A stretch of DNA of 26,683 nt from Candidatus Zixiibacteriota bacterium (lineage in GTDB: Bacteria > RBG-13-66-14 > B26-G2 > WVWN01). Location of the stretch: NCBI GenBank assembly GCA_030613505.1, contig JAUWLW010000040.1, positions 1 through 26,683 on the forward strand, written 5' to 3'. Each line of letters starts with the position of its first letter. Position 1 is the stretch's first letter. Position numbers and translations under genes: made by a program. The notes beneath the pieces are model-generated. The model saw nothing but the letters and a program-made list of their open reading frames with translations. It ran no database searches and was not told the DNA's origin. This document shows positions 22,774-26,146 of the stretch, piece by piece.

Positions 22774-24486
22774 ATGGCAATCTGGGATTTTATCGCGCGG
22801 GTCGTAAGCTACCCGGTATACTTCCGCACCGAGACGGCTTTCGCCGTGCTGTTGGCGATAGTCATCGTCGGCCTCGTTTACTTCTTCTTCAAATTTAACC
22901 GCGACGTTTTCCGGACCACCGACATCATCTGGGTGGCCGACGCCGCGGCCATTCTGTTCATCATAATATTTTCGTTGCTGGTGAAGAACTTCGTCGCCTC
23001 GGCGATATTGGTCGTCGCGTTCCTGGCGGCGGTTGCGGCGGAGGTCGTTTATTTAACTCGCCGGGGCACGAGTACCATCGCCTTGCGGAAAGACGCCGAG
23101 ATCGCCGTTATGCCGATGTTGTTGGGGGGAGTGGTTGAGGAGAACTGGCGGCTGGGTTACGGGTTGGCGGACGTGGTTTCGCGTTGCCTGTCGGCGTACG
23201 ACGTGGCCGTTATGGACCCGGTTCGGGCGGCGACGGGATACGTACGGCGGGGGGTGGTGTCCGAAGCCGAGGTCGTCGAGTGGGGGGAGGCTTTGGAAGT
23301 AGATTATTTAATAATAGGGCGGGCGCGCAGGGTAGGCCGAAACGTACAGGTTCGGTACAAGATAGCGGGGTTGTTCGAACGGCGCGATTGGCGGAGGCCG
23401 CGCGTGCTCGTCGCCGGGGACCGGCCTTACGAGGTGGCGCGGGCTATCCTCGACGACGTAGTGGGGCTGTGCGACCTGCATGTCAAGAACGAGGCGGCGC
23501 TCGCTTATTACGCGGAGCCGACGTCGTCACCGCTCGCGTGGAGGAATTATTGCGACGGCCGTCGCTACCATATCTCGGGGACGCCCGAGAATTTGGAGAA
23601 GGGGCGCGAAGCGTACCGCCGGGCGATGGCCGAGGACGAGGACTTCACGCTCGCGGCCGTCGCCGCGGTCGAGCTCTTGTTGCAATTGGCGCGCCGCCAC
23701 GTACGCGACGAGGATAAGTTCCTCTCGTTCCTCGAGGAGGCGTACCGTTTGGCGCTTCGAGCCGTACGGCAGCATCCCGAGCTCTACGAGACGCAAAACG
23801 TGATGGGCGAGGTATTCGTCTTCCTGTCGGGCGGCCGGGACGAGGACCTCTTCCGTCGCGCGCAGACGCGCTTCCTGGAGGCGGTGCGGCTCAACCCCAA
23901 TTCGGCGCGGTCGTGGTATAATCTGGCGTTAATCTCGAAGTACAGCGTTCCGGAGGAGGACGTGGGTTACGCCGACTTCCTCGGCAAGGCGATCTCGGCC
24001 GACCCGTCGTACATTACGGCGCGCTTGGCGCTCGGCCGGCACCTCGACGAGAAGAACGACCACGAGGGCGCGCGGCAGCAATATCGGTTGGCGCTGACCT
24101 ATAACCCGCGGAATACGTCGGCCCTGAACGAATTGGGTTATTTCTACCTCAAACGCGGCGACGCCGAGCGCGCGACCGAGATCCTTGAGCGCAGCAAAGA
24201 GGTCGACGAGGCCAACCCCACGACGCGGTATTACCTCGGCATAGCCTATTTCCGAAAGGGCGAAGTGGCGCCCGCCGAGGAGGAGTTGTGGGCGGCGCTG
24301 GCTTTCAGGCCCCAGGTGCCGAAGTACTACCACGCGTTGGCGCGGGTGTTGGAAGGGGCTAAGAAGTACGTAGAGGCGATAGCGGTGTGGGAGGAGGCGC
24401 TGAAGCGAGTGAGGGACGAGGCCGACGCCCAGAAAGTCCGCGGACACATCAAACGCCTCGCCGAGGAAGTAAAAGAGAAAACTTAA
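22774..24486 (+). CDS. Membrane protein with FlgO/TolB-N-like domain and TPR repeats
   Basis: 570 residues. Three hydrophobic helices occupy about 20-40, 49-70 and 72-93. Residues about 104-205 (IAVMPMLLGG, then GYGLADVVSRCLSAYDVAVM, then VDYLIIGRARRVGRNVQVRYKI) follow the layout of FlgO/TolB-N-like domains, which often precede TPRs in large bacterial signalling and envelope proteins. Residues about 270-560 contain about six TPRs, clearest at 370-540 (NPNSARSWYNLALISKY, NPRNTSALNELGYFYLKRGD, NPTTRYYLGIAYFRKGE). No kinase or cyclase domain is fused. It probably assembles partners at the inner membrane; which ones is unknown. It has its own promoter and no close downstream partner other than the RNA gene. 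Confidence 0.8.
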   Translation: MAIWDFIARVVSYPVYFRTETAFAVLLAIVIVGLVYFFFKFNRDVFRTTDIIWVADAAAILFIIIFSLLVKNFVASAILVVAFLAAVAAEVVYLTRRGTSTIALRKDAEIAVMPMLLGGVVEENWRLGYGLADVVSRCLSAYDVAVMDPVRAATGYVRRGVVSEAEVVEWGEALEVDYLIIGRARRVGRNVQVRYKIAGLFERRDWRRPRVLVAGDRPYEVARAILDDVVGLCDLHVKNEAALAYYAEPTSSPLAWRNYCDGRRYHISGTPENLEKGREAYRRAMAEDEDFTLAAVAAVELLLQLARRHVRDEDKFLSFLEEAYRLALRAVRQHPELYETQNVMGEVFVFLSGGRDEDLFRRAQTRFLEAVRLNPNSARSWYNLALISKYSVPEEDVGYADFLGKAISADPSYITARLALGRHLDEKNDHEGARQQYRLALTYNPRNTSALNELGYFYLKRGDAERATEILERSKEVDEANPTTRYYLGIAYFRKGEVAPAEEELWAALAFRPQVPKYYHALARVLEGAKKYVEAIAVWEEALKRVRDEADAQKVRGHIKRLAEEVKEKT

Positions 24487-24516
24487 GGCCTTTAAGGTTA
24501 AAGTAGAAAATAAAGC

Positions 24517-24545
24517 TTGATTTTTCGATATATATTTTGTAGCAT
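24517..24545 (+). promoter_or_regulatory. Putative promoter of the 6S-like RNA
   Basis: TTGATT at 24517-24522 (four of six) and TAGCAT at 24540-24545 (four of six) are separated by 17 bp. The predicted start near 24548-24552 coincides with the first paired bases of the RNA closing stem. An alternative TATATT at 24531-24536 lacks a good -35 box. Confidence 0.45.
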
Positions 24546-24547
24546 CG

Positions 24548-24726
24548 ACTTCCCTGCGGTGCAGGTGATGGGGACTAGAAGATTACAGCTTACAACCGTT
24601 GTTTAGGGAGTCAGCCCTTGAGCGTCGGGCAAGCCGCGACCAGCGGAAGTCCAAACCTCAAAAAGCAGACACCCACGTTAAACAGCTGTTCCAATCTCAC
24701 CCTCACACGGCACCGGCGGGGTAATA
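24548..24726 (+). ncRNA. ssrS: 6S RNA candidate (RNA polymerase-binding regulator)
   Basis: About 180 nt without a credible coding frame and with lower GC than its neighbours. It folds as a long rod closed on itself. CCCTGC plus GGTGC (24552-24562) pairs with GCACC and GCGGGG (24710-24714, 24716-24721), 11 pairs with one bulged G. GTGA (24565-24568) pairs with TCAC (24703-24706), and GGG (24570-24572) with CCC (24700-24702). After an open region ACAGCT (24585-24590) pairs with AGCTGT (24684-24689), then GTTTAGG (24601-24607) with CCAAAC (24651-24656), and an apical hairpin follows. The rod with an internal bubble, the size, the CCCTGCGGTG start of the closing stem and the location just upstream of rarA all fit 6S RNA, which is known to neighbour rarA in many bacteria. 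6S RNA mimics an open promoter and binds sigma70 polymerase in stationary phase. It lacks the signatures of RNase P RNA, tmRNA or SRP RNA. The ends are estimates. Confidence 0.72.
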
Positions 24727-24752
24727 AAAGGGTCCGCAAGGACCCTTTTTGT
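24727..24752 (+). terminator. Rho-independent terminator of the 6S-like RNA
   Basis: AAAGGGTCC (24727-24735) and GGACCCTTT (24740-24748) form a perfect 9-bp stem capped by the tetraloop GCAA, followed by further T residues. It ends the RNA gene just before rarA. Bases 24753-24809 show no gene; a directly repeated GCGGCGCC (24794-24801 and 24812-24819) overlaps the rarA promoter. Confidence 0.93.
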
Positions 24753-24809
24753 TTTATCAGTACCCGCTATTCGATGAGCGCCCCGAGTATCGAGCGGCGC
24801 CCTTTTTAA

Positions 24810-24838
24810 TTGCGGCGCCGCCGTTTGCTTTCTATAAT
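24810..24838 (+). promoter_or_regulatory. Promoter of rarA that places the start site on the GTG codon
   Basis: TTGCGG at 24810-24815, a 17-bp spacer and an exact TATAAT at 24833-24838. The usual seven-base distance puts +1 at 24845, the first base of the rarA GTG. The -35 box matches only the conserved TTG. Confidence 0.7.
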
Positions 24839-24844
24839 TACGCC

Positions 24845-26146
24845 GTGGCCGAGGCTTTATTCGAAAAAGATGACGACGCCCGGGCGCCGCTCGCGGTGCG
24901 GATGAGGCCGCGTACGCTGGACGAGTTCGTAGGCCAGGAGGACGTGCTCGGCCCGGGCACCTTCCTCCGCCGCGCCATAGAGGAGGACCGCCTCCAATCC
25001 CTCGTCCTCTACGGCCCGCCGGGGACCGGCAAGACCACGCTCGCCCACATCATCTCGAACGTGACCGGCGCCGCGTTCGAAGCGCTCAACGCCGTCACCG
25101 ACGGCCTGCCCGAGCTCCGCGCCGTCGTCGAGCGGGCGAAGTCGCGGCGCGCGCTCGAGGGCCGGCGCACCCTCCTCTTCATCGACGAGCTCCACCGCTT
25201 CAACAAGACGCAGCAGGACGGTCTCTTGCCCCACGTCGAGGCCGGCCTCTTCGTCATGGTGGGCGCGACGGTGCACAATCCCTACTTCGCGCTCACGCCC
25301 CCCCTCCGCTCTCGCAGCCGCATCGTCCGCCTCGACGCCCTGAGCGACGAGGACCTCAACGTCGTCGCCGACCGCGCGCTGGCCGACGACGAGTGGGGGC
25401 TCGGCAAACTTAAGTTGAAACTGGTCGACGACGCTCGTCGCCACATCCTCCGCGCCGCGGAGGGCGATGCGCGGCGGGTCCTGAACGCCCTCGAGGCGTC
25501 GGCGTTGCTGGTGGGCGAGGGCGGCGAGATAACGGTCGACGTCGCGACGGAGGCCACGGGAGGCCGCGACTACCTCTACGACCGCGACGAGACCGGCCAC
25601 TACGAGACCATCTCGGCGTATATCAAATCCATGCGGGGCTCCGACCCCGACGCCGCCCTCTACTGGCTGGCGCGGATGCTCGCGGGCGGCGAAGACCCGC
25701 GCTTCGTCGCGCGGCGGATGGTCATCTTCGCCTCGGAGGACGTGGGCCTGGCGGACGCCAAGGCCGCGCTCTTGGCGCAGGCGGCCTTCCGCGCCGCGGA
25801 GACCATCGGCGACGCCGAGATGCCCCTCATCCTCGGCCACGTCACTATCTACCTGGCGACGGCGCCCAAGTCCAACACGGCGACGAGGGCGATAGGGCGG
25901 GCGCAGAAAGAGGTGGAGGAGGGGCCGCGGCGAGAGGTCCCGCTGCCGCTGCGCAACGTCCCGCGCGCCGGCGACCCGGACCACGAGGACTATAAATATC
26001 CCCACAGTTTCCCGGGCGGCTGGGTGGAACAGGAATACATGCCCGAGCCGGTTCAATTCTACGAGGCCGGCGAGCGCGGCGACGAGGCGCGGATTAAAAA
26101 ATATTTGGCGTGGATTGCGGATATGAGGAAGAAGTCGCGCAAGTAG
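24845..26146 (+). CDS. rarA: Replication-associated recombination protein A (MgsA/RarA AAA+ ATPase)
   Basis: 433 residues from the chosen GTG. An AAA+ ATPase of the clamp-loader-like RarA/WRNIP1 family that acts at stalled forks. LAVRMRPRTLDEFVGQE at the N terminus is diagnostic. Walker A GPPGTGKTT is at 57-65 with Lys63, Walker B LLFIDELHRF has Asp114 and Glu115, and sensor/arginine-finger region PPLRSRSRIVRL follows. The C-terminal half (RGSDPDAALYWLARMLAGGEDPRFVARRM, then EDVGLADAKA) is the family's oligomerisation domain. The frame is open upstream to a TTG at 24749, but that lies inside the preceding terminator; the GTG at 24845 gives the normal N terminus and coincides with the predicted transcription start, so the mRNA is probably leaderless. 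Confidence 0.95.
   Translation: MAEALFEKDDDARAPLAVRMRPRTLDEFVGQEDVLGPGTFLRRAIEEDRLQSLVLYGPPGTGKTTLAHIISNVTGAAFEALNAVTDGLPELRAVVERAKSRRALEGRRTLLFIDELHRFNKTQQDGLLPHVEAGLFVMVGATVHNPYFALTPPLRSRSRIVRLDALSDEDLNVVADRALADDEWGLGKLKLKLVDDARRHILRAAEGDARRVLNALEASALLVGEGGEITVDVATEATGGRDYLYDRDETGHYETISAYIKSMRGSDPDAALYWLARMLAGGEDPRFVARRMVIFASEDVGLADAKAALLAQAAFRAAETIGDAEMPLILGHVTIYLATAPKSNTATRAIGRAQKEVEEGPRREVPLPLRNVPRAGDPDHEDYKYPHSFPGGWVEQEYMPEPVQFYEAGERGDEARIKKYLAWIADMRKKSRK

Follow-up and report, generated by a model that had tools for sequence, protein, structure and literature searches.

A divergent 6S RNA gene upstream of rarA in a member of Candidatus Coatesbacteria

In the window, i.e. the whole stretch of 26,683 nt analyzed here, a gap at 24487-24748 separates the stop of a gene for a TPR protein (22774-24486) from an open frame similar to rarA, which encodes an AAA ATPase and whose real start probably lies near 24845. 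No gene covers the segment 24517-24752, which the earlier note on this DNA had rightly called non-coding: the longest ORFs inside it reach 41-42 aa, a 63-aa TTG ORF runs across only its 3' part, and a coding role was rejected because these ORFs are only short and overlapping. The same note had described the stretch as poor in GC. This holds for the segment as a whole (51% versus 64% for the window), but the RNA itself has a GC content of 55%, and the low GC is mostly that of the promoter region, with 30% in the leader 24487-24547. The features of the locus are the following:

24517-24522, forward strand: -35 element TTGATT, identical in three congeners and TTGTCA in G003 (same order), always 17 nt before the -10 element
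24540-24545, forward strand: -10 element TAGCAT, after a 17-nt spacer; in this position relatives have TACAAT, TATTAT, TAGGAT or TAGAAT
24548-24726, forward strand: 6S RNA gene (ssrS), matching positions 1-187 of RF00013 with 55.2 bits (E 3.1e-10) and the lineage model R1 with 146 bits
24552-24562, forward strand: 5' strand of the closing stem, CCCTGCGGTGC, present in the minimum-energy fold and the Rfam structure and backed by covariation
24580-24593, forward strand: predicted template of the product RNA (pRNA) 5'-GUAAGCUGUAAUCU, whose first base would lie opposite C24593 according to the alignment with the E. coli start site
24670-24676, forward strand: CACCCAC, a conserved motif in the 3' strand that corresponds to aCCCACCU of the Rfam consensus and is retained in relatives
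24710-24721, forward strand: 3' strand of the closing stem, with the same three lines of evidence as the 5' strand
24726-24749, forward strand: intrinsic terminator, a perfect 10-pair stem followed by TGTTTT; three congeners have a GC-rich stem-loop at the same place
24749-26146, forward strand: open frame of rarA (NCBIfam PRK13341, E 5e-144; RarA PRK14700, E 1e-56)

The assignment to 6S RNA is based on an Rfam scan with permissive filters, in which RF00013 matches the forward strand over the full length of the model (187 of 187 positions) and above the gathering cut-off of 46.4 bits. Among 4227 Rfam families, this is the sole significant match at the locus. The 6S identity proposed in the earlier note is therefore upheld from end to end, and a better match to another RNA family, named there as a counter-sign, did not turn up. 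The score exceeds the cut-off by just 9 bits, and 39 of the 49 Rfam pairs form in this copy, several of the positions being mismatched. With default filters, no Rfam match is returned for the whole window or for the 3-kb locus (L001) around the gene; this blank is due to the filters and not to the absence of 6S RNA, and it makes the label "unannotated" plausible. The lineage model R1 scores the copy in the same range as those of its relatives, with the reservation that this copy is itself part of R1. The CACCCAC motif is kept in nearly all aligned relatives. A search of the genome with the 6S model found no second 6S gene.

The predicted fold of 24548-24726 has a free energy of -67.2 kcal/mol, compared to a mean of -51.9 kcal/mol for dinucleotide shuffles (z -3.6; all 200 shuffles were higher; single-sequence minimum-energy structures throughout). 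In the outer helix of this fold, 24552-24562 is paired with 24710-24721, which is exactly the closing stem that had previously been drawn by hand, and according to this fold and the end-to-end model alignment, the closing stem, an open central bubble and an apical stem form one rod. A good fold is also predicted for the reverse strand (z -3.2), but an RNA from that strand was rejected: the lineage model gives it only 11.9 bits, and neither a promoter nor a terminator that would serve it was found.

Covariation was assessed by laying the Rfam structure on a plain sequence alignment (A1); this structure derives from the match between RF00013 and the window copy, which somewhat favors it over shifted versions. 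In A1, 71% of the cells pair versus 64.5% in shuffles, two-sided changes occur in 21 pairs versus 14.0, and the covariation score amounts to 0.211 versus 0.122, with none of 500 shuffles as high. Every one of these pairing and covariation measures falls when one side is shifted by 1-3 columns. A second alignment (A5) of 12 sequences fitted to the model, which leans towards its model, agrees with A1. An 11-sequence MAFFT alignment misplaced parts of the sequences from G003 and from G002 (same class), and pair counts were therefore taken from A1 and A5. Within the closing stem, six pairs show two-sided changes, and the outermost pairs are often broken. Hence, the expected covariation among homologs is present beyond both shuffled and shifted controls, closing stem included.

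The gene also has its own sigma-70-type promoter, as judged from sequence, TTGATT-17-TAGCAT at 24517-24545. Throughout the genus (four members), TTGATT is followed after a 17-nt spacer by a TAnnAT element just before the first model position; G003 has TTGTCA-17-TAGAAT at the equivalent position, and in family f5 a TTGCCA/TTGTCA-17-TAnCCT pair is located about 10 nt further upstream than in the genus. The promoter was recognized by this conservation of position in relatives. The -10 element of the window is weak (4/6), and an automatic promoter scan found none at the locus because both elements together match only 8/12. From the promoter position, the 5' end should lie at about 24550-24553; at the other end, the perfect terminator that had been described is indeed there, its stem followed by T-rich sequence. 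The distance between these signals corresponds to a transcript of about 175-180 nt, so that promoter, terminator and a length within about 150-200 nt give the layout of an independent gene at the level of sequence. Within the genus the RNA is conserved near-completely, and outside the RNA conservation drops except in the promoter elements and the terminator.

According to the rarA protein, the nearest named relative is a Candidatus Coatesbacteria MAG (CP070633.1; 87% identity in the best segment). Of the 14 genomes of this phylum that were searched, 12 yielded a 6S RNA, 10 of them in the search with the RF00013 model. The scores of this model vary: 77.2, 72.6 and 51.2 bits in the congeners, 100.4 bits in G002, and 34-38 bits in family f5, i.e. 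under the cut-off. In G003, a whole-genome search with RF00013 missed the gene even at E 10, and a direct scan beside rarA retrieved it with 33.9 bits (E 2.4e-4), the distance to the rarA match further downstream being about 120 nt; comparing the syntenic region upstream of rarA, as had been recommended, thus disclosed an otherwise overlooked copy. The lineage model, built from ten lineage sequences with G003 and G011 held out, recovers the held-out copies at 130.5 bits (G011) and 46.1 bits (G003). Neither the Rfam nor the lineage model detects 6S RNA in G001 or in G008 (75% complete). Nor was a rarA match obtained in G001, which belongs to the same class and is smaller (1.6 Mb, with a completeness of 91%). 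The G012 locus contains a tandem duplication of 156 nt (L008:1608-1763 and 1833-1988; 88% identity between the copies), which comprises the 3' portion of the 6S gene and its downstream flank; the second copy is without a proper 5' half.

Adjacency to rarA had been listed among the features that fit 6S RNA, and this calls for a qualification. In the window, G003 and G002, rarA directly follows the 6S gene, but in the three congeners it begins about 1 kb downstream of 6S. In the two congeners whose gap was read, the space is taken up by a convergently oriented ORF of 242-257 aa (L003:1776-2549 and L005:1762-2490; the gap in L004 has the same size), which matches outer-membrane beta-barrel proteins weakly. 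The window lacks this ORF, and a homolog was not found in its genome either. In f5, 6S and the rarA match are on different contigs, and in G012 and G011, the gene is located between ORFs which, by reading alone, resemble uvrC and a chloride channel gene. Because gene order varies in this way among relatives, the RNA is to be regarded as a free-standing gene and not as a rarA leader. A cis-acting 5' leader of rarA, whether attenuator or riboswitch, would agree with the arrangement in the window, where the RNA is directly upstream of rarA with a terminator between them; yet the same RNA and terminator precede the convergent ORF in the congeners, the f5 copies are on another contig than the rarA match, those of G012 and G011 are flanked by the uvrC-like and chloride-channel-like ORFs, and no riboswitch family matches, which leaves this reading very improbable.

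Even less credit can be given to two further explanations. One is an RNA of the Ms1 type, which binds core polymerase; Ms1 is described as structurally related to 6S (PMC9130861). The Rfam search gives only 6S at the locus, however, and it is with RF00013 that the conserved CACCCAC and AGCC/GGUUC positions agree. No Ms1 match appears among Rfam hits up to E 10, which is telling only if the release includes an Ms1 model. The other, equally implausible, is that of a degraded and non-working 6S: the window copy scores below two of the three congeners, and some model pairs are left unpaired in it. Against decay stand the near-complete conservation with the congeners inside the RNA and the lesser conservation outside it, the intact promoter and terminator, and a lineage-model score like that of the relatives, though with this copy in the model. 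By sequence and structure, with covariation, promoter, terminator and conservation in the lineage, the RNA is a member of the 6S family, and 24548-24726 is almost certainly a free-standing, divergent 6S RNA gene (ssrS).

6S RNA is a widespread small RNA which holds back the main RNA polymerase of bacteria by imitating an open promoter. It occupies the housekeeping holoenzyme, and its release follows the transcription of a short pRNA from the bubble (PMC8414754, PMC12005410). By homology, the most likely function of the RNA described here is that of a decoy for the sigma-70-type RNA polymerase, released by pRNA synthesis. Transcription from the sigma-70-type promoter would yield an RNA ending near 24726 or at the terminator, which would fold into a rod with its open central bubble resembling melted promoter DNA. 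To go by the family, this RNA would bind the housekeeping holoenzyme and keep it blocked in times of nutrient shortage, until the polymerase copies the bubble into a short pRNA, predicted to be 5'-GUAAGCUGUAAUCU, and the RNA is set free.

The start of this pRNA was placed by alignment through the Rfam consensus to the E. coli start site, whose position we take as given. The predicted start is opposite C24593, a position that is C in 11 of 11 aligned sequences, and the 5' end of the pRNA would read GUAAGCUG. At positions 4/5, the predicted pRNAs have AG in the window, the congeners and G003, and GG (GUUGG) in G002 and f5. Known pRNAs have GG at positions 4/5 or 5/6, those of E. coli and other Gram-negatives at 4/5 (PMC8414754). 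The AG is a small oddity that speaks against the 6S reading. The pRNA template could have drifted in this order from the CC of E. coli and of the rest of the phylum to a CU or UC type, giving AG, and early pRNA synthesis or release may then be tuned differently; we consider this rather unlikely.

The finding places a regulator of the housekeeping polymerase in Candidatus Coatesbacteria, an uncultured and little-studied phylum for which no mention of 6S RNA was found in the literature searched. It further demonstrates that a true 6S RNA can be lost to the default filters of Rfam even when it scores 9 bits above the curated cut-off, and some divergent lineages reported to lack 6S may therefore have a gene that escaped the search.

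Among known systems, Ms1 of Actinobacteria is an RNA polymerase-binding RNA structurally related to 6S, but it constitutes a different family and is not matched in the Rfam search. Closeness to rarA is shared with 6S-1 (bsrA) of Bacillus subtilis and with the 6S RNA of lactic acid bacteria, for both of which it has been reported (PMC8414754); the other neighbor is uspA in lactic acid bacteria and the TPR protein gene in the window. Compared to 6S/SsrS of E. coli (RF00013; ssrS), the predicted pRNA of the window starts with G and has AG in place of GG at positions 4/5, and the default filters of Rfam fail to pick up the gene. With this family it shares the length, the closing stem, the central bubble, the GGG/CCC helix, the CACCCAC motif and the apical arm, as well as a promoter and terminator of its own and a match to the model over its full length.
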